From assembly GCF_040703035.1 (NCBI RefSeq), contig NZ_CP159996.1, positions 2,700,001 through 2,764,000 on the forward strand: 64,000 bases of DNA. The letters are read 5' to 3'. Origin of the DNA: Terribacillus aidingensis. GTDB lineage: Bacteria > Bacillota > Bacilli > Bacillales > Amphibacillaceae. Below are positions 12,168 to 49,409 of this stretch, piece by piece. The notes below the pieces were generated by a model that was given only the letters and a program-made list of their open reading frames with translations, did not search any database and had not been told where the DNA came from. Made by a program: the position numbers and the translations under genes. The first letter of the stretch is position 1. The number at the start of each line of letters is the position of its first letter.

Positions 12168-12184
12168 TGTAAAGACAGTGTAAA
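12168..12184 (+). promoter_or_regulatory. WalR/PhoP-type direct repeat before tagGH
   Basis: TGTAAA-GACAG-TGTAAA is a perfect match to TGTWAH-N5-TGTWAH, the known WalR (YycF) box form. It ends 6 bp upstream of the tagG -35 hexamer, a position typical of activator binding. Confidence 0.6.
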
Positions 12185-12190
12185 TTAAAA

Positions 12191-12219
12191 TTGTTTTCTA
12201 TTGTTGTTGCTAGTATAAT
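12191..12219 (+). promoter_or_regulatory. Sigma-A promoter of tagGH
   Basis: TTGTTT (12191-12196), a 17-bp spacer and a perfect TATAAT (12214-12219) lie about 47 bp before the tagG start. Confidence 0.65.
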
Positions 12220-12265
12220 TTAAGAGGTCTGAACAAAAGAACATCCTAGCAGGAAGGACTTTTTT

Positions 12266-13102
12266 ATGAAATCAGCAATTACTGTTCTTAAAGAACAATT
12301 CAAGCATTTTAATCTCATTAGACGCATATCGCTTTATGAACTTAGGAATAACAATAATGCAAACTATCTAGGATTGGCGTGGGAGATTATCAGCCCTGTC
12401 ATTCAAATCGCAATCTATTGGCTAGTATTCGGTTACTTGATTAGCGGTGGTGAAGGACGAACGATTCCGAATCCAACTCCTGGAGAACCTGATTTGCAGT
12501 TCTTCCCTTGGCTTGTTTCCGGTTTGATTATCTGGATGTTTTTCCAGCCCGCTGCAACTCAAGGCGCTAAATCAATCTATTCCAGACTGCGATTGTTATC
12601 CAAGATGAATTTCCCGATGAGCGTGATTCCAAATATCACGATCTTCTCTAAATTCTATCCACATTTGATACTCGTAGTTTTGACAATAATTCTTATGCAA
12701 TTTACTGGTTATCCAATCAGCGTTTATATGCTGCAGCTGCCATACTTCATGGTTGCGACATTTGCATTCACGTATGCATTTGTGTTGCTTATGACAACTC
12801 TAACAACGCTTATCCGGGATATTCAGTTGCTTTTGCAAGCAACTTTAAGAATGGTGCTATATCTGACACCTATACTATGGGTTTCTCATAAGCTGCCGGA
12901 TCCTTTGATTATCGTGATGAAGCTTAATCCGCTTTATTATTTGGTCGAAGGTTACCGCGCATCATTGATGGGACAGAATGGCTGGTACTTCATAACATCA
13001 TGGGAGTACACAATCTACTTCTGGGTAGTCACTGCAATCATCTTCATGATTGGTGCTGCCTTACACATCCGTTTCAGAAGACACTTTATCGACTTTCTCT
13101 AA
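12266..13102 (+). CDS. tagG: Teichoic acid ABC transporter permease TagG
   Basis: TagG is the membrane half of the exporter that flips lipid-linked WTA to the outer face. The protein has 278 residues and an ABC-2 type fold: an amphipathic N-terminus, then about six hydrophobic helices. The 'NYLGLAWEIISPVIQIAIYW' opening and 'LNPLYYLVEGYR' near the C-terminus are characteristic of this subfamily. AGGAAGG precedes the ATG. TagH starts 17 bp downstream in the same operon. Confidence 0.93.
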   Translation: MKSAITVLKEQFKHFNLIRRISLYELRNNNNANYLGLAWEIISPVIQIAIYWLVFGYLISGGEGRTIPNPTPGEPDLQFFPWLVSGLIIWMFFQPAATQGAKSIYSRLRLLSKMNFPMSVIPNITIFSKFYPHLILVVLTIILMQFTGYPISVYMLQLPYFMVATFAFTYAFVLLMTTLTTLIRDIQLLLQATLRMVLYLTPILWVSHKLPDPLIIVMKLNPLYYLVEGYRASLMGQNGWYFITSWEYTIYFWVVTAIIFMIGAALHIRFRRHFIDFL

Positions 13103-13118
13103 TTAGAAAGGGATTTTT

Positions 13119-13907
13119 ATGGATAAATCAATCATTGTTGAAAATGTAAGCAAAAAATATAAATTGTATAGCAAAAGCTCAGATCGTATTAAGGACATCA
13201 TTTTCCCGAAGGAATACGGGGAAGACTTTTACGCATTGCGCAATGTCAGCTTTACGGCTGAGAAAGGTGATGTTGTCGGATTTATCGGTATCAACGGTTC
13301 CGGTAAATCTACATTATCGAATATCATAGCTGGCATCGTTCCCGAAACGACGGGCTCAGTTACCTTGAATGGCGATGCAGCTTTGATCGCTGTTTCCGCT
13401 GGTTTGAAGGGTGATTTAACGGGCAGACAGAACATTGAATTGAAGTGTTTGATGCTTGGACTTAACAAGAAGGAAATTGCCGAGCTTGAACCGAAAATCA
13501 TCGAATTTGCTGAGCTGGAGAAGTTCATCGACCAGCCAGTTAAAAATTACTCGAGCGGAATGAAGTCACGCCTTGGGTTCTCTATCTCTGTTAATATCGA
13601 TCCGGAAATCTTGATTATCGATGAAGCGTTATCCGTAGGTGATAAGGCATTCGCTGAGAAGAGCCTTGCCAAGATGCATGAATTCAAGGATAAAGGCAAG
13701 ACGATGATATTCGTCAGCCACTCGCTTGGACAAATGAAGCAGTTCTGCGATAAAATCCTTTGGCTGGAATTTGGACAAGTACGGGAGTATGGCTCTATTC
13801 ATGAAGTCATCCCGAGATACGACCAATTTCTGAACGAATACAAGAAGATGTCGAAGGAAGAAAAAGAAGCATATCGTGAGCGCGCCATCGCAGGTGCAGG
13901 GAATTAA
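13119..13907 (+). CDS. tagH: Teichoic acid ABC transporter ATPase TagH, short form
   Basis: TagH powers WTA export with TagG. At 262 residues it has all ATPase signatures: Walker A 'GINGSGKST' (~62-70), the 'YSSGMKSRLGFS' signature, Walker B 'ILIIDEALSVGD' and the switch histidine in 'FVSHSLG'. B. subtilis TagH carries a large extra C-terminal half; this one ends after the ATPase, like S. aureus TarH. The stop lies against a bidirectional terminator shared with tagA. Confidence 0.93.
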   Translation: MDKSIIVENVSKKYKLYSKSSDRIKDIIFPKEYGEDFYALRNVSFTAEKGDVVGFIGINGSGKSTLSNIIAGIVPETTGSVTLNGDAALIAVSAGLKGDLTGRQNIELKCLMLGLNKKEIAELEPKIIEFAELEKFIDQPVKNYSSGMKSRLGFSISVNIDPEILIIDEALSVGDKAFAEKSLAKMHEFKDKGKTMIFVSHSLGQMKQFCDKILWLEFGQVREYGSIHEVIPRYDQFLNEYKKMSKEEKEAYRERAIAGAGN

Positions 13908-13943
13908 AAAAGACAGAGAGGCTACTCGCCTTTCTGTCTTTTT
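13906..13943. terminator. Bidirectional terminator between tagH and tagA
   Basis: AAAAAGACAGA pairs with TCTGTCTTTTT around a GC-containing inner loop, with A and T tracts on both sides. It serves the convergent tagH and tagA. Confidence 0.8.
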
Positions 13944-14673
13944 ATTTGCGTATAAGGACGCGGAACATAAATTCAAATGCTTTAAGGATCCGTTTCCACC
14001 GGAACGGCTGCTTAATCAAGCGGTAAAGCCATTCCAAATTCAGTTTTATCCATGCACGAGGTGCACGCTTCATTTCTCCGGCTAATATGTCGAATACACC
14101 GCCGACACCCATGAATACACCTTTTTCAAATAGATGCTTATGAGCAGCGATGAAGTTCTCTTGTCTCGGGAACCCCATTGCAACAAAGATAAGATCTGGT
14201 TTAGTTGCAGCTGCTTGCTCTGCAACTGCAGCTTCTGCATCTGCATTAAAATATCCATGGTGGCTTCCGGCAATGCGGATACCGGGATACTGAGAACGCA
14301 CACGGTTTACTGCTCGTTCGTTCGCTTCCTGTTTCGCTCCAAGGAAGTAGCAGCTAAGGTTATGCTTTTCAGCATAGCTGAGCAGCTTGAACATAAGATC
14401 GAAGCCAGTCACGCGTTCTTCAATTGGGTTACCAAGTATTTTAGAGGCAATGACGACCCCTGCACCGTCCGGTATTATATAGTCAGCACTTTTGACACTT
14501 TGTTTATAAACAGCATCCACTCTTGTCTGCATGACAATCTCCGGGTTAGCCGTTACGATATACGTACTTTCGCCAGCGTTGATCCGTGGATAAAGATGCT
14601 GCTGCAATAGTTCTTTTTGCGTTAATTTATTAAAAGGAATATCCATTATTTCTACGATTTCTTGATTTGACAC
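13942..14673 (-). CDS. tagA: WTA linkage-unit ManNAc transferase TagA
   Basis: TagA (WecG/TagA/CpsF family) adds N-acetylmannosamine to undecaprenyl-PP-GlcNAc, the second step of WTA linkage-unit assembly at the inner membrane face. The 243 residues contain the family landmarks 'TANPEIV', 'DGAGVV', 'GSHHGYF' and 'MGFPRQE' and the basic C-terminal segment of the membrane-associating appendage. The start is a GTG at 14673, with GAAAGG a little far upstream. The gene is monocistronic, bounded by terminators on both sides. Direct repeats of TTTACA type lie upstream. Confidence 0.93.
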   Translation of the reverse strand: MSNQEIVEIMDIPFNKLTQKELLQQHLYPRINAGESTYIVTANPEIVMQTRVDAVYKQSVKSADYIIPDGAGVVIASKILGNPIEERVTGFDLMFKLLSYAEKHNLSCYFLGAKQEANERAVNRVRSQYPGIRIAGSHHGYFNADAEAAVAEQAAATKPDLIFVAMGFPRQENFIAAHKHLFEKGVFMGVGGVFDILAGEMKRAPRAWIKLNLEWLYRLIKQPFRWKRILKAFEFMFRVLIRK

Positions 14674-14757
14674 ACTTGTAACAACCTTTCAAGATCAAAC
14701 CATCAGGTAGGAATCTTCGTATGATAGACTTTCCCATTATGCCACGAAAACAATAAC

Positions 14758-14784
14758 TTTACAATTATTCACATAGAATTTACA
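14758..14784 (-). promoter_or_regulatory. Imperfect WalR/PhoP-type triple repeat before tagA
   Basis: On the plus strand TTTACA-N4-TTCACA-N5-TTTACA. The first element overlaps a possible tagA -35 (TTGTAA, 17 bp, CATAAT on the minus strand). One spacer is 4 bp rather than 5, so this is a weaker match than the other boxes. Confidence 0.4.
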
Positions 14785-18056: not shown

Positions 18057-19670
18057 TCATGCTCTTAGCATCCGCTTGATTTTGTTGGCGATACGCTGTT
18101 TTTTGCTAAGCTGTTTCGGTTTCTTTTTCGTCGTATCCTGCAGTTTAAAGGATAGGTTACCGTGCTTTGTATTGTAGGTTGTGACATTAAGCAAATGATT
18201 CTTTTTCTTGGAAGATGTAAGCTTAGTTGTCGCATGACGAGGCATCTCACCTAAGATTCGCGCGATAGCTGTATAATTCTCGATTCTGCTGACAAGATGC
18301 AAATCTACTATGTCCTTCTCCGCTTCGATCCTTTCGATTATGGATGCCGGGATGACAACATGGAATGCCGATAGCATCTGCTCTTGCATCACTTCAGGAT
18401 TCACAGGAACTGGATTGTCTATATGATAAGCACCTTTTTGAACAGCAAGAGAGGTTACGCGGTCACTATCCCTGTCGCTAAGCTTCAAATAAAGCTGTTC
18501 CTCGGAGGCGTCAACCAAAGAATGATAGCTATACCCTTCTAGTAACAAGCCTTCTGCTTTTTTCTCCACACGTGTTACAGCTGCCGTAAGCTTATTCGAG
18601 CGGTGGAAGGATAAAGATTCAGCCTTAGCCAATTCATAAGCTTTTTCTGCCTTCGGATAGATGAGACCATGGAATACTTGCATATTACCTGGATGACGCT
18701 CTGCATACCAGAAGTTGATAAGATCATCAAGCTCACCTTGCTCAATGATTCGAAGCAGCAGCTTCTCCCTTGTATTGAAATTCGCATAAATCTCCAGGAA
18801 ATTATGCTGCTTGATCAATTCTTTCAAGGAATTGAAGATGAATAGCTTATCCTCCATCTGGAAGGAGCGTGTGATCGTCGTGCGCAGTTCAATATTCAGT
18901 ACTCGTGTTAAGTATTGATAATAGGTGAGCAGCTTTTTCTCTTTAGGAAGCTGCAAACCAGCAACTGCAGCAAGCGTCTCTTCAAACTGATGCATGTAAA
19001 GACGGCCAGTAATTGGTTTTTTTGTAAGCTGCTCTCTGCCTACAGTGAGATTATTCGTGAGATAATAGCATGGGTAATCTTTTACGATAGATATAGAATT
19101 AGAGTAAGCATAAGCTTGGATGACGAATGGCTGATCCTCACCAAGCGAGTAATGTTCTGGGAACCGGATATTATGCTCACGAAGCAAGCTTACTCGGAAC
19201 AGCTTCTGTACGCTGACTGTGTACATGGCGTTAGAGCCATAGAAGCTGAAATTATCTGGGTTCCGCTTGAAAATGGCTTGGGGAACACCTCTATTGATAC
19301 CGACATATCTCCCGACAACGATGTCACTGTCGTATTGAAGGATTTTCTCCTCCATCCGCTCTAATGCTTCTTCTCCAAGATAATCATCTCCGTCTACGAA
19401 GAAGATGAAATCACCTGTCGCAAGCTCGATTGCCTTATTTCGCGGACCGCTCGGTGAACCGCTGTTTTCCTGGTGGACAATACGTACAAAACTGTATGTA
19501 TTGCTGTACTCCTCCAAAATTGCTGGGCTTTGGTCAGTAGACCCATCATTTACACAGATAATCTCCAGTTTGTCTTTATCAATGGTCTGATTGATGATAC
19601 TGTCCAGACACTGCCTGATTGTATTTTCGTCATTATAAACTGGAATTGCAATTGTATACTTCAACTTCAT
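18057..19670 (-). CDS. TarS-like GT2 glycosyltransferase
   Basis: This is a probable cytoplasmic WTA glycosyltransferase. The GT2 catalytic domain occupies residues ~1-230, with 'IPVYNDENTI', 'VNDGSTDQSP', 'SGSPSGPRNKAI' and the metal-binding 'FFVDGDDYL'. Middle and C-terminal regions (~320-500) are beta-rich, and a Lys-rich tail ends the chain (537 residues). Domain order and phrases such as 'GRYVGINRGVPQ' and 'GEDQPFVIQAY' resemble S. aureus TarS, which puts beta-GlcNAc on poly(ribitol phosphate). The backbone here is presumably glycerol phosphate because tagB and tagF are present. An excellent WalR-type repeat lies just upstream of the ribosome site. Confidence 0.82.
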   Translation of the reverse strand: MKLKYTIAIPVYNDENTIRQCLDSIINQTIDKDKLEIICVNDGSTDQSPAILEEYSNTYSFVRIVHQENSGSPSGPRNKAIELATGDFIFFVDGDDYLGEEALERMEEKILQYDSDIVVGRYVGINRGVPQAIFKRNPDNFSFYGSNAMYTVSVQKLFRVSLLREHNIRFPEHYSLGEDQPFVIQAYAYSNSISIVKDYPCYYLTNNLTVGREQLTKKPITGRLYMHQFEETLAAVAGLQLPKEKKLLTYYQYLTRVLNIELRTTITRSFQMEDKLFIFNSLKELIKQHNFLEIYANFNTREKLLLRIIEQGELDDLINFWYAERHPGNMQVFHGLIYPKAEKAYELAKAESLSFHRSNKLTAAVTRVEKKAEGLLLEGYSYHSLVDASEEQLYLKLSDRDSDRVTSLAVQKGAYHIDNPVPVNPEVMQEQMLSAFHVVIPASIIERIEAEKDIVDLHLVSRIENYTAIARILGEMPRHATTKLTSSKKKNHLLNVTTYNTKHGNLSFKLQDTTKKKPKQLSKKQRIANKIKRMLRA

Positions 19671-19684: not shown

Positions 19685-19701
19685 TTTACATTCATTTTAC
19701 A
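19685..19701 (-). promoter_or_regulatory. WalR/PhoP-type direct repeat at the tarS-like gene
   Basis: On the minus strand TGTAAA-ATGAA-TGTAAA, a perfect TGTWAH-N5-TGTWAH match. It ends only 15 bp before the ATG, immediately upstream of the GGAGG site, so it would act on the 5' leader, or by blocking, rather than as a standard activator site. Confidence 0.55.
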
Positions 19702-19740: not shown

Positions 19741-19783
19741 AAAAATCACACCACGTGCGATTTCACGTGGTGTGATTTTTTTA
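19741..19783 (-). terminator. Strong terminator of the GW amidase gene
   Basis: AAAAATCACACCACGTG (19741-19757) and CACGTGGTGTGATTTTT (19764-19780) form a perfect 17-bp stem with T and A tracts. Confidence 0.85.
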
Positions 19784-22279
19784 TTTTAAGTATGCTGAAT
19801 GAATCCATACTTCTTTCCCTGCCAACATACCTCGATACCAAGTATTATTTCCGACTTTCTCCGTCAAATTGACCTGAAACTCTTTACCTGCATAACTCGA
19901 GAGATCATAGACAAGGTCTTTCGAGCCGCCCCATGCTTTGGCATAAGCACTGCCTGTTCCTAAGACATGCAAGGTTTTACGTGTCTTATCAACTGTAACA
20001 TGTGAATACGTCTTTATCTGTGCTGCTTCCACCCAGCCAATGGTACCGCTTGTGCTGCTAGGCTCTCTGCTGATCAGATAATATGTTTTCTTATCAAAAA
20101 CAAGTTGTTTCTTTATGTAATATACCTGATTTGTATAGCCATTCGTTGCCTTTTTGGCACCTGTTGTTATACCAGGGGAAGTCAGAATGAGGGCTTCTGC
20201 CCTCACATGACCAAGCCTGCTTGTCTTGCTCTCTTCTTTTGTAGACAAATAAGCACTGTGCAGCCACATCTGCTTTCCGTCAAGAGTTCCGCGATACCAG
20301 GTATTATTGCCGACTTTCTCCGTCAGATTCACATAAAAGGCCTTACCTCTTGATGCAGACAGATTACCGCTGACAAGATTCTTGCTTCCGCCCCAGGCTT
20401 TATTATAAGACTTTCCAGATCCAGTCAGGTAAAGCGTCTGAGCAGTCTTATTGACGCCCTTATGGTCATGTGTCTGCAGCTGTTCCGCTTTTACCCAACC
20501 TACTACTTCTTCTGTCCTGCTTGGTGCATAGCTGATAAGGTAGAATAGCTGTCCATCTCTTTCAATCTGCTTCTTGATGTAATAGACCTGATTATATTCA
20601 TTGCTTGCAGCATTTCTGTATTTAGCTGTATTTTTAGCTTCTGTGTAGATTTTGGCTCCACTGCGCAGATGTCCCAGCTTGCTTGTATTGCTTTCTTTTC
20701 TCTTATCAGTGACAAAGCTGGAGTGCACCCACACTTCCTTACCATTGAGGGTACCGCGTATCCAAGTATTGTTCCCGACTGTTTCCGTAAGGTTTGAGGT
20801 GAAAACCTTGCCCTTCATTGACGCTAAATCATACACTTGGTTCTTGGAACCACCCCAGGCTTTATTATAGGCTTTACCGACTCCCGCAACTGTGTACATA
20901 TACTGATCATGGTTAACCGTTTTATGATCATATACTTTCACATCACTTGCTTTCATCCACCCTATTGTCCCGGAAGAGGGACTTGGCTGAGTGCTTAATA
21001 AATAGTAAGTGGTTCCGCTGACGTTGGCTTGCTTCTTGATGTAATAGACTTGGTCTGTTTTAGTTGATCCTGCTTGTATACTGCTGGACAAGTTCGATAG
21101 ATTCGGATAGATTCTCGCACTCGTAGTCCGAATATGTCCTAGTTTGCTAGTGTTGCTGTACTTAATCGCTTTCTGGTTATACTTCTCCGTAACAAGTGTC
21201 ACAAATTCGCTCCAGTTGTAGCCGTATTGTGCAAAGTAGCCATGCGGGTCTACATGTGTCGTACCACCCAGGAAATTGCTTACAGCTTTATGCGACCACA
21301 ACGTTCCTCGTCCATTCGCTTCTGCACTTGTTACACCAAGATTATATTTTGCCAGCACATAAGCAATATAATCCGCATAGTTATTAATAGATTTTGCAAA
21401 GTCCTCGAAGTTATCCTCCCGGACCAATTCCACATGAACAAAACGTTGGTTCGCGTAATATCCCCCGCCCCATGCGGCATAATCAGTCGGATGGATTTCG
21501 ATGATATTTCCATGATCGACAAATGCATGAACAAATGCATTATTGTAATTCTGTGTCATGTAGTTTATCTCACCGCGGATTGTAGAATTTGGATTTGCTG
21601 TTTCATGTGCTACGACACCTTCTACAGCACCTCTCCCGTTTCGGTAATTGAATTTGGGAAACTGGCTTTTATACTCATATTTAATGGAAGACGTAGACGG
21701 CGTATTTTTTTTAATCCAGTCGTTAACGTCCGGATAACTAGCTCGAATAGATAAGCGAGGTTCTGTAGAGGATTGTACTTCAGATTCATCCACTCCATCA
21801 CGCCACTCAAGCGGAATGTATTGAAGCTCTTCAGCAGATAGCTTACTGATATCAATTCCATAAACCATCGTACCCTCTTTAATACCGAGTTCGTTGTATC
21901 GTGGCTCTTCTTCCTCTTGCTCTTTGACTGCAGATTCCTGCTTCGTACTGTCTTGTTCTGTATCTGGCGTATCTGTTTGTAATTCTGACTGCTCTGCCTG
22001 TTCTTCTTCAGATTCCTGTTCTTCTGCTGCTGGCAGATCAGTTTCTTCCTTGCCAATCGATTCATTATCTATCTGAGCAGACGACGCAGCAGGTTCCTTT
22101 TCGGTCTCTTTTGCTATCGATGAATCTTCTGTGTCTATTTCCTGAGGTGCAACATTAGTATTAGAATCACTAATGTTATCCTCTTTATTCTGAACATCAT
22201 GCTCTTCTGCAAAAACTCCCACTGGCATGATACTGAAACATACCATCAAAACGACTATCAAGCTAATAACTTTTTTCAT
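19781..22279 (-). CDS. N-acetylmuramoyl-L-alanine amidase with GW modules
   Basis: This 832-residue secreted wall hydrolase cleaves the bond between MurNAc and the stem peptide. It has a signal peptide (1-24), an acidic Glu/Gln/Ser/Asp linker (~25-130), an Amidase_2 domain (~185-370; candidate zinc and catalytic residues H225/E226 in 'VAHETAN', H330 and the 'THVDPHGYF' segment), then three ~150-residue modules. Each starts with a 'S+LGH+R' phrase and holds two GW/SH3-like halves ('YYIKKQ ... GW', then 'KAWGGSK ... GNNTW.RG ... WVHS'). GW modules hold proteins to teichoic acids, fitting its place in the WTA locus. It resembles the amidase half of staphylococcal Atl; the partner glucosaminidase is the next gene upstream. 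Confidence 0.92.
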   Translation of the reverse strand: MKKVISLIVVLMVCFSIMPVGVFAEEHDVQNKEDNISDSNTNVAPQEIDTEDSSIAKETEKEPAASSAQIDNESIGKEETDLPAAEEQESEEEQAEQSELQTDTPDTEQDSTKQESAVKEQEEEEPRYNELGIKEGTMVYGIDISKLSAEELQYIPLEWRDGVDESEVQSSTEPRLSIRASYPDVNDWIKKNTPSTSSIKYEYKSQFPKFNYRNGRGAVEGVVAHETANPNSTIRGEINYMTQNYNNAFVHAFVDHGNIIEIHPTDYAAWGGGYYANQRFVHVELVREDNFEDFAKSINNYADYIAYVLAKYNLGVTSAEANGRGTLWSHKAVSNFLGGTTHVDPHGYFAQYGYNWSEFVTLVTEKYNQKAIKYSNTSKLGHIRTTSARIYPNLSNLSSSIQAGSTKTDQVYYIKKQANVSGTTYYLLSTQPSPSSGTIGWMKASDVKVYDHKTVNHDQYMYTVAGVGKAYNKAWGGSKNQVYDLASMKGKVFTSNLTETVGNNTWIRGTLNGKEVWVHSSFVTDKRKESNTSKLGHLRSGAKIYTEAKNTAKYRNAASNEYNQVYYIKKQIERDGQLFYLISYAPSRTEEVVGWVKAEQLQTHDHKGVNKTAQTLYLTGSGKSYNKAWGGSKNLVSGNLSASRGKAFYVNLTEKVGNNTWYRGTLDGKQMWLHSAYLSTKEESKTSRLGHVRAEALILTSPGITTGAKKATNGYTNQVYYIKKQLVFDKKTYYLISREPSSTSGTIGWVEAAQIKTYSHVTVDKTRKTLHVLGTGSAYAKAWGGSKDLVYDLSSYAGKEFQVNLTEKVGNNTWYRGMLAGKEVWIHSAYLK

Positions 22280-22445
22280 TTTTACCCTCTGTCCTCTAAT
22301 TAGAAAATGGTTATAGCTGCCGTTTCAAAATTCGCCTCCTTCTCGGCCTGATTGGACTAGGAAGTATGTGATGTAAAATAATTGCTAAAACCTTTCCTAC
22401 CTAATATATCGACAAAAAATTTACAATCTGAAATACTAATTTACA

Positions 22446-25985: not shown

Positions 25986-28112
25986 TTATTTAATCACTTG
26001 TTTTACTACGCGTTCCGAAGCTTTCCCATCCTCTAGATAACAGAAACGGTTGTAGAATGCTTCAAATCGTTCATCCGGCTGATAGCCTTCCCTGTCAATT
26101 CGTTTTACTTCTTGGATGATTTGCTCTGTTTGTTTCAATAAAGGTCCAGGAGCAGTTTCTTCAAAATCAAAGTAGAATCCGCGAAGGTTATCCCGATAGT
26201 CATCCAAATCATACACGAAGAACATCATAGGACGACGCAGGTTGGCATAGTCAAAGAATACGGAAGAATAATCCGTAATCAGCATATCAGCCATCAAGTA
26301 AAGTTCACGGATATCTTCATGCTTGGAAAAGTCATAAGCAAATCCTTCATAGCTGGAAAGATCTAAATTCTCAGCAACAAGATAATGAAGACGCAATACA
26401 ACGACATATTCGTCTCCCAGTTCCTGACGCATACGTTCCAGATCCAGCTCTAAATCAAACTTATATTTTCCTTTCTGATAAAACTGATTATCCCGCCAGG
26501 TTGGTGCATACAGGATAATTTTCTTATCCTCAGAAAGCCCGCAGCTTTTTTTAAGTGCTTCTATATTCTCCGGCTTATTATGTGTATAAAGGAAGTCGTT
26601 TCGCGGGTATCCTGTTTCAAGCATATCCTTCTCAAATCCGAACGCCCTCGCGAAGATTTCACTGGAGTACGCATTTGGCGAAACAAGATAATCCCATTTG
26701 GAAGCTTCGAATAAGAAATTGCGTTTATACGCCTCGGTATTCGTACCAGGCATATGCACCTCGTCCATATCTGCAGCAAGTCGCTTCAGCGGTGTGCCAT
26801 GCCAGGTTTGCAAATAAATCGTATGATTTGGTTTTGGAATCCATAGCGGCAGACGACTGTTGGAGACCCAATACCTTGCCCTTGTCATAAGGAACAACCA
26901 ACGAACGGAAAACCTGCGCACATAAGGAACGTCCTTTGTTTCAAAGTAAGGAACTGCACGTCGGTCCGAGCTCCAATACATTTTGTACTCCGGATGGTGT
27001 TCCCGCATGTACTCATAAATCGCTCTTGGATTGTCACTGTATTGTTTGCCAAGGAAACTTTCGAAAACCATAAGTTTTTTATCAACAGGCAAGATAGCTC
27101 CGAAAAGCTTGAACACCTGCTGATAACTATTTTTAAGGAATCTGCCTCTGCGGATACTGACCCACTTGCGTCTCGCTCGCGAGATACTTTCCCGAATAAA
27201 GAAATACTCAGAAGTTTGAACAGAAAGATATTTCGACTTCTTCGTTAATCTCACGGTCATTTTATATTTCTTACCATTGATAGTCGTTTTCGCAGCCGCT
27301 GGCAAGGTTGAATCTTTTTTCAGATGGCGCATGCGGATACTGCGGATGGTCTGGCGCACACCATTGTGTGAATAAGTCAGCTCTACATAAAATTTCAGAA
27401 ACTTCTTATCTGACAAATCAATATGAGGTGTTATATCGAATAGTCCCTCAAATCCAGAGTGCCGGAGCAGCTCATTTCCTTCATATTTATCTGCTAAGTC
27501 CTCGCGTTCCTTAAACTGAAGCGGGAAAGTGAGCTCTTCCTCTTCATTCAAGTTGTTTGTCACCACGAGTTTCAGTTCTTCCAATTTATAAGCATCGCTT
27601 TGGTATAGCGGAGCATAGTTAATTGAACCGGAAAAATGCATGACTCCCGTTTTCTTTAAATGAACTTCTTCCAAATTGGCAAACAAAACATAATCGTTTA
27701 CTCGGAAAGAGATGTTACCTTTTCCGGTGCGATACGGGTAGAAAACCTTGTCCGTTCCTGGTATGAAATAGGAATTATATTGCAGGTGCTCCGGCGGATT
27801 AGAAATCCGAGCCCGCTTCGTTTCTCCTTCATTTTCCCGTTCAACGTACAGATCCCACATAACTCCATCCTGAAGCATCTGTGTATGCTCCGACGGGTCC
27901 AGCGTTACTTTACAAATCGTATATTCATCTACGCTGTGATCTTCATTAAATGTAAGGTAAATGTCCTCATTTGTATAACGATTCATCAATAAGAACCGAT
28001 ATGTTTCATAATCAGCGATGTAGGAGGCTTTTATCGGAATCTCCATATAGAAAATTCCCGCTTCAATACGAACCGATATGGCTCTCCTATTTCGAAGGCT
28101 GATGTTTTCCAT
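25986..28112 (-). CDS. tagF: Poly(glycerol-phosphate) polymerase TagF
   Basis: TagF extends the WTA main chain from CDP-glycerol at the inner membrane face. I start at the ATG at 28112, with GAGAGGAG upstream, giving 708 residues; a longer frame upstream lacks a ribosome site. The N-terminal ~320 residues are a beta-rich region, as in full-length TagF. The C-terminal ~380 residues are the glyphos_transf domain, with 'QTWHGTPLKRL', 'GYPRNDFL', 'YAPTWRD', 'VLRLHYLV' and 'MLITDYSSVFFDYA'. The two conserved histidines of the family lie in 'TWHGTP' and 'RLHYL'. The gene is divergent from tagDB. Confidence 0.93.
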   Translation of the reverse strand: MENISLRNRRAISVRIEAGIFYMEIPIKASYIADYETYRFLLMNRYTNEDIYLTFNEDHSVDEYTICKVTLDPSEHTQMLQDGVMWDLYVERENEGETKRARISNPPEHLQYNSYFIPGTDKVFYPYRTGKGNISFRVNDYVLFANLEEVHLKKTGVMHFSGSINYAPLYQSDAYKLEELKLVVTNNLNEEEELTFPLQFKEREDLADKYEGNELLRHSGFEGLFDITPHIDLSDKKFLKFYVELTYSHNGVRQTIRSIRMRHLKKDSTLPAAAKTTINGKKYKMTVRLTKKSKYLSVQTSEYFFIRESISRARRKWVSIRRGRFLKNSYQQVFKLFGAILPVDKKLMVFESFLGKQYSDNPRAIYEYMREHHPEYKMYWSSDRRAVPYFETKDVPYVRRFSVRWLFLMTRARYWVSNSRLPLWIPKPNHTIYLQTWHGTPLKRLAADMDEVHMPGTNTEAYKRNFLFEASKWDYLVSPNAYSSEIFARAFGFEKDMLETGYPRNDFLYTHNKPENIEALKKSCGLSEDKKIILYAPTWRDNQFYQKGKYKFDLELDLERMRQELGDEYVVVLRLHYLVAENLDLSSYEGFAYDFSKHEDIRELYLMADMLITDYSSVFFDYANLRRPMMFFVYDLDDYRDNLRGFYFDFEETAPGPLLKQTEQIIQEVKRIDREGYQPDERFEAFYNRFCYLEDGKASERVVKQVIK

Positions 28113-28150
28113 GCAGTACTTTCTCCTCTCGACTAGCAAATCCATTCCTT

Positions 28151-28361: not shown

Positions 28362-28390
28362 TTGAAATTTAATTAAAATGTAAATATAAT
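28362..28390 (+). promoter_or_regulatory. Sigma-A promoter of tagDB
   Basis: TTGAAA (28362-28367), 17 bp and a perfect TATAAT (28385-28390). The expected start point near 28397 falls inside the direct repeat at 28390-28406. Confidence 0.7.
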
Positions 28391-28406
28391 GTTAATCAGG
28401 TGTAAA
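28390..28406 (+). promoter_or_regulatory. WalR/PhoP-type direct repeat at tagD
   Basis: TGTTAA-TCAGG-TGTAAA, a perfect TGTWAH-N5-TGTWAH match, overlaps the probable +1 of the TATAAT promoter, a repressor-like position. Weaker -10 candidates (TATGAT 28410, TATACT 28417) lie just after it. In B. subtilis both WalR (YycF) and PhoP are known to act on tag promoters. Confidence 0.6.
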
Positions 28407-31248: not shown

Positions 31249-31351
31249 TTGTATCCTCCTAAATAGCTTGCAAATCGTTCCAAAAATGCTTTTATAATCC
31301 AAGTATCATAAATTACTAGATTTCGACAGTATTCTGCGTAGGTTCTGTACT

Positions 31352-31423: not shown

Positions 31424-31440
31424 TTTACATTTCTTTTACA
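31424..31440 (-). promoter_or_regulatory. WalR/PhoP-type direct repeat upstream of tagO
   Basis: On the minus strand TGTAAA-AGAAA-TGTAAA, a perfect TGTWAH-N5-TGTWAH match 44 bp upstream of the -35. Additional half-sites (TGTAAA at 31391, TTTACA at 31398) lie between it and the promoter. Confidence 0.55.
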
Positions 31441-35455: not shown

Positions 35456-35472
35456 TTTACAGTAACTTAACG
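35456..35472 (-). promoter_or_regulatory. Near-match WalR/PhoP-type repeat before the flippase gene
   Basis: On the minus strand CGTTAA-GTTAC-TGTAAA: correct 5-bp spacing, one mismatch. It is about 97 bp upstream of the flippase start. Confidence 0.35.
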
Positions 35473-35557: not shown

Positions 35558-35585
35558 TTTACAATTACTTCACCATTGGTTAACA
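35558..35585 (+). promoter_or_regulatory. Three 11-bp-spaced TTNACN repeats before the GT2 gene
   Basis: TTTACA (35558), TTCACC (35569) and TTAACA (35580), each separated by 5 bp. Tandem TTNACA elements at 11-bp steps are the form of PhoP boxes. The group ends 66 bp before the GTG start. Confidence 0.45.
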
Positions 35586-40977: not shown

Positions 40978-41023
40978 CGTAAAAAGAAGCACAAACACTG
41001 ATTCTGTTTGTGCTTCTTTTTGT
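40978..41023 (-). terminator. Terminator of the CWB2/SLT gene
   Basis: AAAAAGAAGCACAAAC (40981-40996) pairs with GTTTGTGCTTCTTTTT (41006-41021), a 16-bp stem. Confidence 0.85.
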
Positions 41024-43422
41024 TACTGAAGGATTCCTTCGAGTTCCTGTCGTGTCCGGTCTGCAATAGCAGCATCTGAGCCGAGATAGAAAATCTCAGG
41101 CTGATCGGTAACCTTATTTAGAAAAGCTCGTGTCGGCTTCGTAACAGCATCCGGTCTCGTCAGAACGATAGGTGCATCATATTTAGCTGCAAGCGGTGCA
41201 CCAGACAGACTGTCTACCGTCGTTTGACCGTTAGCAAAGAATACTTGATCCGGATTGTTTCCATAATACTTCGTGATAACAGCAGCATTCGTCGAATAGC
41301 GATCAGGTCCGTATACACGTTCCACAGAAGCACCAAGCTGCTTGACTGCATCCGCTACACGTTTAGACACGACTGTCTCACTGCCGATAATTGTCACTTT
41401 TTTAATACTATTGCGCTTGATATAATTCTTTACTTCTTCATGCAGCTCTCCCGTTCTTGTCAGCAAGATAGGGATGCCTTCTTTTCCTGCATGAGGTCCG
41501 ATAGTGAGCGCATCCGGCGATTTCTCATCTCCGACTGCAAGGAAGACCTCTGATGGCTTACTTGCAACAGCTGCTACTTCCTCTGCTACTTTTACGGCTG
41601 TCGCATAACGAGTAGAGCCGGCTACTCGTTCGACTGTGCTATTAGGAAACTTTTTACGCAAATCGTTCTCGACATTTTTCGAAATAGCTGGTTCTGCACC
41701 GACTATATAGATGGTAGACGGATTCAGTCGATCAATCTCCGTAATTGTCACCTGCTCCAGCTTATTCTGATCCGTTAACAGAAGCGGAGAATCCGTTTGG
41801 GCTGCCAGGACGCTTCCTGTGAAAGCATCAATTGGCAGATCGCTTCTTCCAATTACGACTGCTTCAGGAGATTCCAGATGCCAGCCGTAGTTGGAAATGC
41901 TCGCACTTGTGGCATTACGGCGTGAACCCTCCAAATTGTGCACGACCATAGGTGCCTTGCTCAAATAACCGCTGGCTACATAACCTGTTTTGCCGCTGCT
42001 AGTACGCACTGGATACCAGACATAGTGATTTACATTGGAATTATTTGCAGTGTAGCCGCCAGTGATTGTCAGCTTTTCCCCTCTTGACAAGGAGCCGATG
42101 GAAGAACCATTCGGACTATTGCGCAGCGTGAGCTGGTCAGCTGTAACATATACTGTGCTGCCATTTCCATAATTCTGTGTGCTTTCATGCAATGGTCCAG
42201 GCGTGGATACTTGGTTTGTCTGGAATGAGAAGTATGAACCAAGTTTTCCGCTAATTCTGCCAGGTGTCAAAAGATGAGTCGGGAAAGGCGTCGTGGTAAT
42301 CAACGACTGATTCTCCATTTCCTTATACACAAGCTCCTGGTAAGCAGTTTGCGGATTTGCTATTGGATCATTCCGTTCTAACCGTCCATTGTATGCCAGA
42401 ATAGCAAAGTACCAGTTTTCTAATTTATCAGGATTACCATCGTTGACCTTTGGAATCAGATTATATGCCAAAGTGGATTCAGCTTTCGCGTTAGCCTCAT
42501 TCCATTTGTCTTTCAGAATACGCATCCCGCGATCGATATTGTAATCGATATCGTGCATCAGGCGCTCTATTTCCTCGGTGTCATTGCGGTTATAATCGGA
42601 AACCTGCATGATACCGATACCAATACAATCATAGCCGATCACCACATTGGATCCGTCCGAAATGCTGCAGGAAGCCTGATAGGAAGGTGTGCTCCCCGTC
42701 CAATACTGTTTCCAGCCGCTTTCACGGAAAGCGATTGATTTCACGATCTCTGCTGGCACATCGTATTTAACCGCAGCTGCTGTCAGCTTACGGCTGATGG
42801 TGTCATAGCTTGGGTTTGAATAGCTTGCAGCACTAGCACGAAACGTGCGTGCTTGTGAAGCACTTGCTGTCGGTTCTGTCCGCTTATCCTCTTTCGTCAC
42901 TTGCTGCGGAGCTACTGTGAATGCTTCGATATATACTTCTTTCGGTTCTGCAAGCGGTACATCCTGTTCGATTTTTGGGTAGCTTACTTCAAGCTGTGTC
43001 CCTTCCTCATCTACAGTGAGTCTCGCTCCTTCATATAAATCGGATTGATAAATGCGTTCCAGTTTCTCATTTGTGACATGCAAGATATCGAATTGCAAGG
43101 CTTGTGCTGTTCCATGTGTACGATACTCTACAATTACATAAGATGTATTGTCCATTGTTGTTTCCTGAACAGAGGCAATATCTGCATCTGGAATCGTGGA
43201 TTCATAAAGTGTCCCAGAATCTCCCTTAATCCGAATTACCCCGTTCGTATCATTCGTTACTTCGACAGTTTTACCATCTGACAATTGTACCGTTGCCGCA
43301 CCCTCTGAAAAAGCATGACTATTCGACTCTGCTTGGACATCAGCAGGCTGGATAAATGCTAAGCATGCAAGAAAAAGACCAGCAAAAAAGACATATATAT
43401 TCGTCGCTCTGCTTCTTTCCAC
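41023..43422 (-). CDS. Secreted lytic transglycosylase-like protein with SH3 and CWB2 repeats
   Basis: This wall-associated protein has 799 residues: a signal peptide (1-31), a beta-rich N-terminal region (~35-170), an SLT-type lysozyme-like domain (~205-365) with the catalytic glutamate E234 in 'AFRESGW', a bacterial SH3 domain (~415-490, 'ADQLTLRNSPNG'), and three CWB2 repeats (~505-799; 'YATAVKVAEEV' and 'YSTNAAVITKYY' type). CWB2 repeats bind anionic wall polymers non-covalently. The start is a GTG with AGAGGG 8 nt upstream. A perfect WalR-type repeat lies 138 bp upstream, which suits a wall hydrolase. Confidence 0.9.
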   Translation of the reverse strand: MERSRATNIYVFFAGLFLACLAFIQPADVQAESNSHAFSEGAATVQLSDGKTVEVTNDTNGVIRIKGDSGTLYESTIPDADIASVQETTMDNTSYVIVEYRTHGTAQALQFDILHVTNEKLERIYQSDLYEGARLTVDEEGTQLEVSYPKIEQDVPLAEPKEVYIEAFTVAPQQVTKEDKRTEPTASASQARTFRASAASYSNPSYDTISRKLTAAAVKYDVPAEIVKSIAFRESGWKQYWTGSTPSYQASCSISDGSNVVIGYDCIGIGIMQVSDYNRNDTEEIERLMHDIDYNIDRGMRILKDKWNEANAKAESTLAYNLIPKVNDGNPDKLENWYFAILAYNGRLERNDPIANPQTAYQELVYKEMENQSLITTTPFPTHLLTPGRISGKLGSYFSFQTNQVSTPGPLHESTQNYGNGSTVYVTADQLTLRNSPNGSSIGSLSRGEKLTITGGYTANNSNVNHYVWYPVRTSSGKTGYVASGYLSKAPMVVHNLEGSRRNATSASISNYGWHLESPEAVVIGRSDLPIDAFTGSVLAAQTDSPLLLTDQNKLEQVTITEIDRLNPSTIYIVGAEPAISKNVENDLRKKFPNSTVERVAGSTRYATAVKVAEEVAAVASKPSEVFLAVGDEKSPDALTIGPHAGKEGIPILLTRTGELHEEVKNYIKRNSIKKVTIIGSETVVSKRVADAVKQLGASVERVYGPDRYSTNAAVITKYYGNNPDQVFFANGQTTVDSLSGAPLAAKYDAPIVLTRPDAVTKPTRAFLNKVTDQPEIFYLGSDAAIADRTRQELEGILQ

Positions 43423-43559: not shown

Positions 43560-43576
43560 TTTACAATCGCTTAACA
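43560..43576 (-). promoter_or_regulatory. WalR/PhoP-type direct repeat upstream of the CWB2/SLT gene
   Basis: On the minus strand TGTTAA-GCGAT-TGTAAA, a perfect TGTWAH-N5-TGTWAH match. A TATAGT -10 lies 34 bp downstream (43520-43525) without a good -35, as expected of a WalR-activated promoter. Confidence 0.6.
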
Positions 43577-43603
43577 AAAAAGCCCAACCATAGTTGGACT
43601 TCA
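43577..43603 (-). terminator. Terminator of the GT4 gene
   Basis: AAGCCCAAC pairs with GTTGGACTT (one mismatch), with TTTTTTG following on the minus strand. Confidence 0.6.
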
Positions 43604-44689
43604 TCGAGAGAATATTTTTGTCAAGCGAGGCTTGATTTCTTCCACTTCATAAGCTGCTGCTGTCTGTTTTGCCGATTCTTGAATCGTTTGCTTCGCTGCC
43701 TCTGGCAGTTCCATATAGGCAGTGATGCAGCCAGCCAGCTCCTCAGCAGATCCTGGTTCAAAAAGAAAGCCATTCCTGCCATGTTGCATATAGTCTAACA
43801 GTCCTGCCATCCGGCTGCCGATTACAGGTGTTCCGCAAGCCATCGCTTCCAGACCTACAAGACCAAGGCTTTCTCCTTCTCGCATCGTTGGAAAACAGAA
43901 CACTGTCATACTATTGTATACACTGTTCAGCTTTTGTTGGGACAGAAGCGGGAAATGCACAAGATTTTTCCGTAATCCATAACTGTCCACCATATTATCA
44001 AAGCTTTCTTTCTCCAGTCCATCACCGATGAACAATAGCTTGCGTTTTTCCAGTTTGCCTTGTTCCTTCAGGAGCTTGGCAGCCTTCAGATAGACATCCC
44101 AGCCTTTTCCTCTATCAATCCTGCCAACAAATCCTATATAGCTATATGCCGGATTGATCTCAAGCTCCCGGCAAGCAAGCTGGGTATCTTTCTCATAGAA
44201 GGTATCCTTGTTAATGCCTCCGGATGGAAATATTTCGATCCGATTCGTCAAACCATATTTCTGCTGCACAAGCTGCTTATAATAATCACTCGGTGTAATG
44301 ACAGTATCTGATACTTCTAATAAACGCTTCACGTAAGGCTGGTATTTCTGCCGTTTCTGAAACTCTGGCACAACATCACTGCCATGCACATTTGTGTAGA
44401 CAACCATATTCTTGTTCAATTTCTTGGCAATCAGCACCGGAATTGAATTATGTGTTGCATAATGCACATAGGTAACATCATATTTCCGGAAAACAGATTT
44501 CCCGATCACTTTGATAAAATGACTGGCATAAGCAATCAGCTTACCTAAGGAACTCGATTGCTTTGTGACGACAGTACGGTCGAATGCTACTCCCGACTGT
44601 GCAAGGATCTTTTCTGTATTTTCGACAAACACCCCATAATTGGGATGCTGCTTGCTTGGATACATATTTGCGATCAAATGAACTTTCAT
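43601..44689 (-). CDS. GT4 family glycosyltransferase
   Basis: This cytoplasmic retaining glycosyltransferase has 362 residues. I start at the ATG at 44689 with AAGGGGC upstream. The N-terminal Rossmann half begins 'MKVHLIANMYPSKQHPNYGVFVE' and contains 'NVHGSDVVPE'; the C-terminal half has 'IGFVGRIDRGKG' and 'EGESLGLVGLEAMACGTPVIGS', the GT4 donor site. It stands alone between a wall hydrolase gene and an efflux-adaptor gene. Substrate and pathway cannot be read from the sequence; capsule or exopolysaccharide is likely. Confidence 0.88.
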   Translation of the reverse strand: MKVHLIANMYPSKQHPNYGVFVENTEKILAQSGVAFDRTVVTKQSSSLGKLIAYASHFIKVIGKSVFRKYDVTYVHYATHNSIPVLIAKKLNKNMVVYTNVHGSDVVPEFQKRQKYQPYVKRLLEVSDTVITPSDYYKQLVQQKYGLTNRIEIFPSGGINKDTFYEKDTQLACRELEINPAYSYIGFVGRIDRGKGWDVYLKAAKLLKEQGKLEKRKLLFIGDGLEKESFDNMVDSYGLRKNLVHFPLLSQQKLNSVYNSMTVFCFPTMREGESLGLVGLEAMACGTPVIGSRMAGLLDYMQHGRNGFLFEPGSAEELAGCITAYMELPEAAKQTIQESAKQTAAAYEVEEIKPRLTKIFSR

Positions 44690-44785
44690 ACGAATGCCCC
44701 TTACGTACTTAATTGTAAACAAATTGTACGCTTATTCGACAATGCTTGCAGTAGGATTGTCTACTTCTTTAGAAACAATTTACAA

Positions 44786-46827: not shown

Positions 46828-47939
46828 ATAAGACTGTTGCTTGGGCGAAGTGCAGTGCGATGCTTCGCGCGTTTTGGCACAACTGGGTTGCTGAGTTTTC
46901 CTTTCACGTACTGTATGCCTACATAAGAAAGCAGAGATAACATATACAGTATAGGTGCATAAAGCAGGCCCCAAGCAAACGTGTGCGTCACAGCTGATTG
47001 ATCGAGTGCCTGATCAAAGATGCTGCGCCATAGTGTATGAATCAAGTAGATACCAACTACATTTTTAGCAATAATGCTAACATAACGATGCTTTCCGATG
47101 TTACGTGCTTTCAAGGTGAACAGCAGAAGGGAAATTGTCAAAGGAATTGTACTGATAAGATACTCTCCCTGCGGCAAATCCAGCCCGTAATATAGGATAG
47201 ACCGCTCCATCAGCTGCAGAACAAATCCAGCAGCTACCATTATAACGATCGTCCTTACACGGATTGCTTGTGCTGCATGAACGATTTGTTTTTCATATAA
47301 ACCAAAGCAAGCTCCTAGTGCTGTATAAAATAAACCAAAGTAAATTCCGTTTCTTGTCGTCTCTTCCATCGTGACATGGAAGAGTGGTCCATAAGATTGT
47401 CCCAGGAGACCAATTAGATTAAGAATAAGACCCACTAACAAGGTCACCTTCATTAGGCGTAATCTGTAAGCCGCATAAATGATGATGATTGAAAAGATCA
47501 AAGCGAACATAAACCAAAGCTGAAATTGCGTATAAGATATCCCATCCAATAATGTGCGCCACTGGAAGGTATCCTGAATGTATGCCGTCAGCTCAGCTTT
47601 TTGCTCACTCATTGTTCCGTTTGAAGTCGTAAGCATCTTTATAAAATCATATACCCAATAAAAAGCAAACCATGCAGCAAGCAAGCTGATCAGCTTTCCA
47701 GTATAGCGTTTGAAGTACGCGAATGTGTCATCTGTTCGCTGGAGTTTCATTGCAAATAAATAGCCTGATGCAGCAAAGAAGAACGGGACTGAGAAGCGTG
47801 CGATTGTATCGATGATGAATGCCCAGGTTTCACCGTTCCCGAATGGGACAGCGGTGTCTCGGAATGTATGTGTATGAATACAAACGACGCCGAAGATCGC
47901 CAGGCATTTGAAGAAATCAATGGAGTAATTCCTCGTCAT
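46821..47939 (-). CDS. Acyltransferase family 3 membrane protein
   Basis: This 372-residue protein has about ten membrane helices and the acyltransferase-3 opening 'RNYSIDFFKCLAIFGVVCIHTHTF', with the family histidine in 'CIHTH' and 'RFSVPFFFAASGYLFA'. It probably acetylates or otherwise acylates a wall or exopolysaccharide sugar. I start at the ATG at 47939; the ATG two codons earlier abuts the AGGTAG site. The C-terminus is basic. No partner hydrolase is adjacent. Confidence 0.88.
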   Translation of the reverse strand: MTRNYSIDFFKCLAIFGVVCIHTHTFRDTAVPFGNGETWAFIIDTIARFSVPFFFAASGYLFAMKLQRTDDTFAYFKRYTGKLISLLAAWFAFYWVYDFIKMLTTSNGTMSEQKAELTAYIQDTFQWRTLLDGISYTQFQLWFMFALIFSIIIIYAAYRLRLMKVTLLVGLILNLIGLLGQSYGPLFHVTMEETTRNGIYFGLFYTALGACFGLYEKQIVHAAQAIRVRTIVIMVAAGFVLQLMERSILYYGLDLPQGEYLISTIPLTISLLLFTLKARNIGKHRYVSIIAKNVVGIYLIHTLWRSIFDQALDQSAVTHTFAWGLLYAPILYMLSLLSYVGIQYVKGKLSNPVVPKRAKHRTALRPSNSLIK

Positions 47940-48107
47940 GTGCATCTACCTGCTTTCTATATTCTAAGAAATCATATCCGTCTTTTCTTCTTTATATACC
48001 CTCAATTCGGGGTGCCGCAAGAGTTTTAACAGAACTGTAACGACAACACAATCTGCTCGCAATATGATTACAAACTCTATCCAATTAGCCCTAATTTTTC
48101 CCACAAA

Positions 48108-48136
48108 AAAAAGCACTTACAGTAGTAAGTGCTTAG
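48108..48136 (-). terminator. Terminator of the 208-residue unknown gene
   Basis: AAGCACTTAC (48111-48120) pairs with GTAAGTGCTT (48125-48134), T tract on the minus strand. Confidence 0.75.
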
Positions 48137-48759
48137 GTGGTTTGGCTGAATGCCTGCACAAGCAGATCAAGCTTCTTGGCATCACTTGGCGGCTCATAGC
48201 TATCGTCTTTGAAATGCTCGTCGAATGCAGCAGTCAATGCGCCGAAACGGCTGTCCTGCAGAATGGATTGGTAAAACTCGAAAAGCTGACCGTATTGTTC
48301 GATATAACGCGTCATCTTCTTATCGAATCCAATCAAGTGATTGGCTGATGGCATACCTAGGAATGAAATTCTTGCCGGATCATATATCGGATAATGCACA
48401 TTCAAAAGATGCAGCATATGCGTAACGAGGGGAAATTGCATGGAAGGGTTGCCCCGGCGATTTCTCACTTCATATAACGCTGCTGTCAATCCGACGATTT
48501 TCCGCTTGTCCGGCTGACATGCGGCTTCCTGGAACAGACGGAAAAAGGTTTGTTCGAATGCCTCTGTCAGATTGGGATTGACCAAGCCTATGTAGTGCTT
48601 CAATACGTATTGAAATACTGGACTGTGTTCAGGTCTTCTCGCTTCTTGGCGCAAGAACGCATCGAGGGCGATATCCTCCCGTCTGATTGATGATAGAAGC
48701 TGGTCTTTATGAAGCAGCAGCTGCTCCAGAAAATCGGCTTCGGTATATGTGTCGCGCAT
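48133..48759 (-). CDS. Unknown soluble protein
   Basis: I do not recognise this family. The ATG at 48759 with GGAGGAGG upstream gives 208 residues; seven further residues upstream would need a GTG. It is predicted cytoplasmic and largely helical, with no signal peptide or membrane segment. Segments worth searching are 'NRRGNPSMQFPLVTHMLHLL' and 'YPIYDPARISFLGMP'. It lies alone between an acyltransferase gene and comK, with its own terminator. Clean coding bias and ribosome site make it a real gene. Confidence 0.75.
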   Translation of the reverse strand: MRDTYTEADFLEQLLLHKDQLLSSIRREDIALDAFLRQEARRPEHSPVFQYVLKHYIGLVNPNLTEAFEQTFFRLFQEAACQPDKRKIVGLTAALYEVRNRRGNPSMQFPLVTHMLHLLNVHYPIYDPARISFLGMPSANHLIGFDKKMTRYIEQYGQLFEFYQSILQDSRFGALTAAFDEHFKDDSYEPPSDAKKLDLLVQAFSQTT

Positions 48760-48847
48760 AAGACAGGTTTCCTCCTCCACTCCAAAGCTGGTAATGATAG
48801 TTTACATGATAACATAACCGCTTCGGCAGAAGAAGTGATTGATAGCT

Positions 48848-49333
48848 TCAGGATAAGCTTTGCCCCATGAAGAAATGTTCATTATTAAGTAAGGCAATGA
48901 CAGTACCTGTCCTTTTATACTGCTGGTCGAAGGAACGCTCTGACGTTTCTACAAACAAAGCAGTACCATTATAGAAGCTGACTCGGGTGCGGCTTTTTGT
49001 TTCTTTAAAGGATTGAATATGATAGAAGGACAGCCAGACGCAATGGGTGTTCGTAGGTGAGGAAGTCGGGAGCATAAAAACGCCATGGGCCGGATGCACT
49101 GGAATAGGCACCTTCTTGTCCGTCCGCAGCAGTCTGCCAATTGCATGTACTCTGCCCTCATAAGAGGATCCGTACTGCATGCAGCTATGATCAATGATCG
49201 TAAGAGGTGATTGTTCCACCCATATTTCTTTATCGGCTTCAAGAACACGGGATTGGTACACTGGATCGCGCAAACGAAAGACAGCAATGGTATTGCGGGT
49301 GATGATGTACTGTTCCCTTTTTTCTATTTGCAT
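48848..49333 (-). CDS. comK: Competence transcription factor ComK, short form
   Basis: ComK activates DNA-uptake genes. The ATG at 49333 with GGAGGGGG upstream gives 161 residues. Phrases shared with B. subtilis ComK include 'IIDHSCMQYGSSYEGR' (IVDRSCRFFGSSYAGR), the 'VHPAHGVFMLPTSSPTNTHC' segment (VDPSNQIFLFPTLSSTRPQC) and 'VSFYNGT'. The B. subtilis protein is 192 residues; the missing part is the C-terminal segment that contains the FMLYPK signal through which MecA/ClpCP degrades ComK. Control may therefore differ. A promoter lies at 49371-49398 and overlaps a WalR-type repeat. Confidence 0.87.
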   Translation of the reverse strand: MQIEKREQYIITRNTIAVFRLRDPVYQSRVLEADKEIWVEQSPLTIIDHSCMQYGSSYEGRVHAIGRLLRTDKKVPIPVHPAHGVFMLPTSSPTNTHCVWLSFYHIQSFKETKSRTRVSFYNGTALFVETSERSFDQQYKRTGTVIALLNNEHFFMGQSLS

Positions 49334-49370
49334 AATTTCCCCCTCCAATTGACTGATACAAGACTATATT

Positions 49371-49398
49371 ACTATAAACAGCTGCCCTAATATGTAAA
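49371..49398 (-). promoter_or_regulatory. Promoter of comK
   Basis: On the minus strand TTTACA, a 16-bp spacer and TATAGT, 38 bp before the ATG. I looked for ComK boxes (AAAA-N5-TTTT pairs) and saw none. Confidence 0.5.
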
Positions 49399-49409
49399 GG
49401 AGTTGTAAA
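49393..49409 (+). promoter_or_regulatory. WalR/PhoP-type direct repeat over the comK -35
   Basis: TGTAAA-GGAGT-TGTAAA, a perfect TGTWAH-N5-TGTWAH match on the plus strand, opposite in direction to comK. It covers the comK -35, a repressor-like position. Confidence 0.4.

Follow-up and report, generated by a model that had tools for sequence, protein, structure and literature searches.

Direct repeats, probably PhoP sites, recur across a wall teichoic acid and envelope locus of Terribacillus aidingensis

In Bacillus subtilis, PhoP~P controls tagAB/tagDEF along with the Pho regulon, acting as a repressor of tagA and tagD and as an activator of tuaA (PMC6232261, PMC13403408); the PhoP consensus is given as TT(A/T/C)ACA-N4-6-TT(A/T/C)ACA, whose complement ends in A (PMC12404567). 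In B. subtilis and Staphylococcus aureus, a 17-base-pair (bp) direct repeat, TGTWAH-N5-TGTWAH, marks the WalR (YycF) regulon (PMC9210968), whose S. aureus targets include tagG and tarF (PMC10746227). Here we analyse a 17-bp direct repeat that recurs across a wall teichoic acid (WTA) and envelope locus of Terribacillus aidingensis. The locus lies in bases 2,700,001-2,764,000 of a single-contig genome (C1) of 3,576,432 bases. Its TagO shares 97% identity with the protein of Terribacillus saccharophilus 7517-1 and 92% with that of T. aidingensis, which places the host in the genus Terribacillus. This stretch of 64,000 bases, 1.8% of the genome, is called the window, and positions are those of the window unless given as genome positions. 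The repeats resemble the B. subtilis PhoP~P system in half-site type, in a spacer of 4-6 and in the presence of boxes at tagA, tagD, pstS, phoPR and alkaline phosphatase genes. Unlike that system, Terribacillus also has boxes at tagGH, tagO, a flippase gene, several glycosyltransferase genes, a wall-lytic gene, comK and a UDP-sulfoquinovose-synthase-like (sqdB-like) gene, and the direction of the boxes separates groups of genes. The 17-bp direct repeat is shared with the WalR regulon; however, the two WalR-type promoters recognised in Terribacillus have boxes whose sixth base is T or C and whose direction is opposite to that of the tag boxes. In Bacillus coahuilensis, a Bacillus in which sulfolipid genes have been described, sqd1/sqdX offers a parallel within the Bacillaceae to the sqdB-like gene of Terribacillus and the glycosyltransferase gene behind it; B. 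coahuilensis is reported to have no teichoic acid genes (PMC4744853). In Terribacillus the sqdB-like gene has a Pho box, a perfect TGTWAA pair, at 5/9 loci.

The window contains 7 perfect TGTWAH-N5-TGTWAH pairs, against a mean of 0.13 in 100 dinucleotide shuffles (largest 2), and all 7 are of the narrower TGTWAA form. They fall at the six places named in an earlier note on this DNA, 12168 (+), 19685 (-), 28379/28390 (+), 31424 (-), 43560 (-) and 49393 (+), the third of which consists of two overlapping pairs, that is, three half-sites. When one mismatch is allowed, the counts rise to 23 for TGTWAH and 14 for TGTWAA, with shuffle expectations of 8.6 and 1.4. In the intergenic DNA of 12-50 kilobases (kb) (23 segments, 4,077 bases, GC 37%), 7 perfect TGTWAA pairs compare with a mean of 0.015 and a maximum of 1 in 1000 shuffles; no TGTWAA pair with a spacer of 0-4 or 6-9 occurs in these segments, and single TGTWAA half-sites number 38 against 11 expected. 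The remainder of the window, beyond this intergenic DNA, has no perfect TGTWAA pair. Genome-wide there are 46 perfect TGTWAH pairs, and since the reversed control pattern gives 31, scattered matches to the broad pattern are little above noise. The TGTWAA pairs make up 15 of these 46, and 7 of the 15 lie in the window (p = 3e-9), or 6 of 14 when counted as separate places (p = 9e-8). The condition under which the earlier note would have been refuted, an equal density genome-wide, did not refute it. With one mismatch the genome-wide search yields 154 TGTWAA matches, 14 of them in the window (reversed control of that search, 109). The motif set in the window is real, dense and not due to chance.

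Eight TGTWAA pairs lie outside the window, five of them intergenic and three inside open frames (genome positions 465131, 814721 and 3020683). Intergenic pairs are found upstream of pstS (genome position 1925108), at phoPR between mdh and phoP (2207003), and upstream of an alkaline phosphatase gene (3129611). The pair at the sqdB-like gene (1699438) shares 4 bases with the end of the adjoining frame, and a perfect pair in Pho-gene direction is located upstream of a gene for a 73-residue acidic lipoprotein (C1:511612). A triple half-site (C1:2882868-2882895) stands at a phosphonate (phn) transporter operon, in which the gene of a phosphonate-binding protein is accompanied by three for transporters (these last named by eye); on the other side of the triple half-site is a 5'-nucleotidase-like gene. 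PstS is backed by a family model (264.6 bits, cut-off 206.6), as are the alkaline phosphatase and the phosphonate-binding protein. The sqdB name is likely rather than certain, because the score against the sulfoquinovose-synthase model, 499.7 bits, falls short of the required 575. The sqdB-like gene and the glycosyltransferase gene behind it occupy C1:1697018-1699330; all 9 Terribacillus have the former, and 10 of 32 other genomes searched encode a version with 76-85% identity. The genus comparison comprised eight further Terribacillus genomes plus one more of the same species, and conservation counts include the studied genome. Within it, the perfect TGTWAA pair is present at pstS and at phoPR in 10/10 each and at phoA in 7/10, with one mismatch in the other 3.

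Because the identical TGTWAA pair precedes pstS, phoPR and alkaline phosphatase of the same genome, we assign the WTA boxes to the Pho type. The repeats are probably PhoP sites that place the WTA and envelope locus in the Pho regulon. The window arrays have the composition of Pho boxes, with at least two TTWACA-type half-sites, spacers of 4-6 and a single direction; they also match the WalR consensus. Base six of the half-site distinguishes the two classes, being A in Pho-class boxes and T or C at lytE and yocH. A TGTAAT/TGTAAC pair precedes the lytE-like gene (LysM, NlpC/P60) in 10/10 Terribacillus genomes, one of which is entered twice. For the yocH-like gene (LysM, 3D), 6/8 loci have a pair of this type and 2 more have one with one mismatch. 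A is the last base in every one of the 13 half-sites that make up the 7 perfect window pairs. Scored with matrices from four Pho and two Wal promoters, 13/13 window pairs favour Pho over Wal by 6.7-14.9 bits; six of these are one-mismatch pairs chosen by a pattern ending in A, so base six is tested freely by the 7 perfect pairs only. The window boxes therefore do not share the box sub-type of the wall-hydrolase genes of the same genome (two Wal promoters compared), as members of a WalR regulon should. Among pstS-like promoters in other genera of the family, 19/27 have a perfect pair (20 boxes), and 40/40 half-sites end in A. The WalR control, LysM-3D promoters of other genera (30 loci, 10 dropped for want of a LysM motif), gave a box in 1/20, or 2/20 with a relaxed pattern, too few to bear on the base-six rule in those genera. 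The published PhoP and WalR motifs agree with the base-six classes. Elsewhere in the genome, a WalR-type TGTAAT pair lies directly upstream of a murG-like gene (named by eye; C1:955008).

Genes for both regulators appear to be present. The PhoP candidate owes its name in part to gene order, with mdh on one side and on the other a gene, taken as phoR, that was recognised by eye as encoding a kinase. It also resembles the solved receiver 1mvo, named PhoP response regulator (172.7 bits), more than the YycF receivers 2zwm (133.3 bits) and 3f6p (132.3 bits). It is under the cut-off of the YycF model (273 of 340 bits), which the WalR orthologue at genome position 3436760 exceeds with 438 bits. The two proteins are 48% identical.

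We call a box with TTWACA on the coding strand one in Pho-gene direction and a box with TGTWAA on the coding strand reversed. TTWACA is on the coding strand at pstS, phoPR, phoA, sqdB and phn, and in 20/20 boxes at pstS-like genes of other genera. Eight promoters in the window have reversed boxes. Candidate -35 and -10 elements were assigned by eye on alignments, and a site was treated as non-evaluable in any genome whose available stretch did not include the gene or the DNA upstream of it. The perfect tagGH box (12168..12184, +) is 6 bp upstream of the candidate -35 of a promoter at 12191-12219 and is perfect in 6/7 evaluable Terribacillus genomes. At tagA, four half-sites with spacers of 5, 4 and 5, two of them imperfect, span the candidate -35 (14747..14784, -), and a one-mismatch pair is found in 6/9 genomes. 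The perfect box of the GT2 gene 18057-19670 (19685..19701, -) is in the leader, downstream of the candidate promoter, and is perfect in 4/5 genomes having an ortholog of at least 60% identity. The tagD array (28379..28406, +) has three perfect half-sites in 11-bp phase, the first two flanking the candidate -10 TATAAT of a promoter at 28362-28390, and at least one perfect pair is present in 9/9 genomes. Divergent from tagD is gene 25986-28145, whose product is TarF-like at residues 324-707 (below the model cut-off) and has a long N-terminal extension. The tagO box (31424..31440, -) is perfect, ends 43 bp upstream of the candidate -35 and occurs in 9/9 genomes, in 7/9 perfect and in 2/9 with one mismatch. 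At the flippase gene a one-mismatch box (35456..35472, -), which ends 5 bp upstream of the candidate -35, is kept in 9/9. The wall-lytic SLT/CWB2 gene 41023-43422, its domains identified by family models, has a perfect box (43560..43576, -), found in 9/9 genomes (4/9 perfect, 5/9 with one mismatch). The eighth is a weak box at the glycosyltransferase gene 43601-44722 (44768..44784, -), with one mismatch in 9/9.

Three boxes in the window run in the same direction as that of pstS. The comK box (49393..49419, +) consists of a perfect pair at 49393-49409 and a third, imperfect half-site, with TTTACA on the comK coding strand; it is present in 7/7 evaluable genomes (5/7 perfect, 2/7 with one mismatch). 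From its last half-site to TATAGT there are 16 bp, and the pstS alignment allows equal spacing to TTAATA. The array of GT2 gene 35642 (35558..35585, -) reads TTTACA-N5-TTCACC-N5-TTAACA on the + strand. The earlier note had listed weaker versions of the repeat at tagA, at 35456 and at 35558: the first is the four-half-site array and the second the one-mismatch flippase box, whereas the third needs two mismatches as a pair and is better described as a three-half-site 11-bp array, kept as such in 9/9 Terribacillus genomes with the outer half-sites retained in all 9/9. The last of the three is a weak box at the amidase gene 19781-22279 (22372..22388, +), with one mismatch, for which a one-mismatch pair is found in 4 Terribacillus genomes. 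We do not claim the one-mismatch sites 18029 and 25853, kept in only 1 and 2 Terribacillus genomes, and site 29344, inside a coding region, was set aside. A different motif, TGTCGAA, which we take to be the Spo0A box, is also frequent in the window (20 copies, 8.9 expected; 20 was reached in 1 of 100 shuffles). Its copies at 31322 (before tagO), 35615 (GT2 35642) and 43468 (SLT/CWB2) are kept in 9/9 genomes and the copy at 44735, before gene 43601, in 6/9.

The location of the arrays relative to the promoters varies, across the -35 at tagA, around the -10 at tagD, downstream of the 18057 promoter and upstream of the -35 at tagGH, the flippase gene and tagO. With placements as different as these, position gives no single answer, and we set it aside as the sole key to the sign of regulation. 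A simple promoter scan adds little beyond tagD, its best match, because it gives 49 matches against 44.0 in shuffles. A cleaner grouping of the sites comes from the direction of the box. Direction cannot tell Pho from Wal, because the lytE and yocH boxes run like pstS and the tag boxes differ from both.

Across the sister genomes the window boxes are conserved, half-sites more than spacers. At eight window sites (tagA and GT2 35642 excluded), cells that differ from the studied genome number 33/669 in half-sites, 78/280 in spacers and 504/2,197 in flanks; the four Pho genes give 9/420, 36/175 and 221/1,398. The compared genomes are related, so p-values on conservation overstate. The flippase and 43601 sites alone give no contrast of half-site and spacer, because their spacers are as conserved as the half-sites (1/40 each). 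Beyond the genus we sampled about 10 kb on each side of tagO. The 80 named tagO loci contain 24 perfect pairs, against 3.6 in shuffles, distributed over 12 loci (two Terribacillus, ten others). A box before tagD in the Terribacillus direction is found in five other loci, those of Aquibacillus saliphilus, two Paraliobacillus, Paucisalibacillus and Pseudalkalibacillus; in Fictibacillus the box is between tagD and tagA, and Neobacillus mesonae and Viridibacillus arenosi have one before tagO. A tagD box thus occurs in several genera, and a tagO box recurs. Within this sample, Terribacillus alone showed boxes over the whole locus.

When phosphate is exhausted, PhoP~P would bind the two to four half-sites in 11-bp phase. 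It would activate from the boxes at pstS, phoPR, alkaline phosphatase, phn and sqdB, and at the reversed arrays of the WTA genes, often on promoter parts, the most likely effect is repression, saving phosphate. Array position on promoter parts argues for repression of tagA, tagD and 18057, and direction for that of tagGH, the flippase gene, tagO, SLT/CWB2 and 43601; direction likewise predicts activation of comK and GT2 35642. We infer PhoP binding at the window boxes, and its sign at each promoter, from sequence; the assignment is least certain for tagO, SLT/CWB2 and 43601. The earlier note had suggested that activation and repression might be divided according to box position, and a division remains plausible, with direction as its better marker. 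It had also extended the motif beyond tagA and tagD to tagGH, tagO, glycosyltransferases and comK, an extension that conservation in sister genomes backs. Its WalR box form is correct as a WalR/PhoP-type motif. WalR as the sole factor, which we considered first, now ranks behind PhoP because the Pho genes bear the same TGTWAA pair and lytE and yocH, with T or C at base six, do not.

Among other explanations, sharing of the tag boxes, with WalR bound during growth and PhoP~P taking over when phosphate is short, fares best and still seems unlikely. The in vitro phosphorylation of YycF by PhoR and of PhoP by YycG in B. subtilis (PMC13403408) is consistent with such an exchange, as are the overlap of the published consensus motifs and the 48% identity of the two regulators, but the difference at base six in Terribacillus argues for separation. 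Slightly less likely again is that the boxes belong to WalR, a growth-linked wall regulator that would tune WTA synthesis and export alongside autolysins. In its favour are the agreement of the motif with the WalR consensus in the literature, the WalR orthologue in the genome, the presence of tagG and tarF among the S. aureus WalR targets, and the hydrolase genes of the locus, one of which, 41023-43422, has a perfect box; against this, pstS, phoPR and alkaline phosphatase bear the same pair, and the lytE and yocH boxes differ from those of the window in base six and from the tag boxes in direction. Chance in intergenic DNA of 63% AT is rejected as having next to no likelihood, given shuffle counts far below those observed, the restriction to spacer 5 among spacers 0-9 and the conservation of half-sites over spacers.

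Several observations nevertheless weigh against assignment of the boxes to PhoP or against the direction rule. The published PhoP and WalR motifs, as given in the sources above, overlap, and tagG and tarF are among the S. aureus WalR targets described (PMC10746227); for that regulator the same source reports that position and not orientation set the sign. The Wal box class is based on two promoters in one genus, since the cross-genus Wal control had few boxes. With 212 bits, the PhoP candidate does not reach the 296 that the PhoB model requires. There is no perfect pair at 68/80 tagO loci, and the sqdB-like gene is without a box at 4/9 Terribacillus loci and has no perfect box at 10/10 loci of other genera.

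PhoP remains the probable regulator of the locus. We are more tentative about a wider scheme, possible although on balance doubtful, in which PhoP controls the whole wall-polymer programme and direction equals sign. Under this rule pst, phoPR, phoA, phn, the sulfolipid gene sqdB, comK and GT2 35642 would be switched on, and tagO, tagA, tagD, tagGH, the flippase gene, the WTA glycosyltransferase genes and the wall-lytic gene would be switched off. Starved cells might then replace phosphate polymers and phospholipids by phosphate-free ones and take up DNA as a source of phosphorus. The type of regulator and its first targets, tagA and tagD, are already known; new, as far as we have seen, would be the reach to tagGH, tagO, the flippase, the glycosyltransferases, the wall-lytic gene and comK, together with the directional split. 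Among the entries listed by searches of the open literature, with most subscription papers outside that scope, none deals with regulation of these Terribacillus genes by PhoP or WalR, and no title or abstract opening reports PhoP control of comK. If the proposal is true, phosphate status would govern WTA supply from TagO, the first enzyme, to export by TagGH, beyond tagA and tagD, and phosphate stress would be linked to competence through comK and perhaps to membrane sulfolipid. Two sequence rules are offered, that base six splits PhoP from WalR boxes and that direction splits activated from repressed genes. If they hold, annotation of the Pho and Wal regulons in the Bacillaceae would be feasible without experiments.

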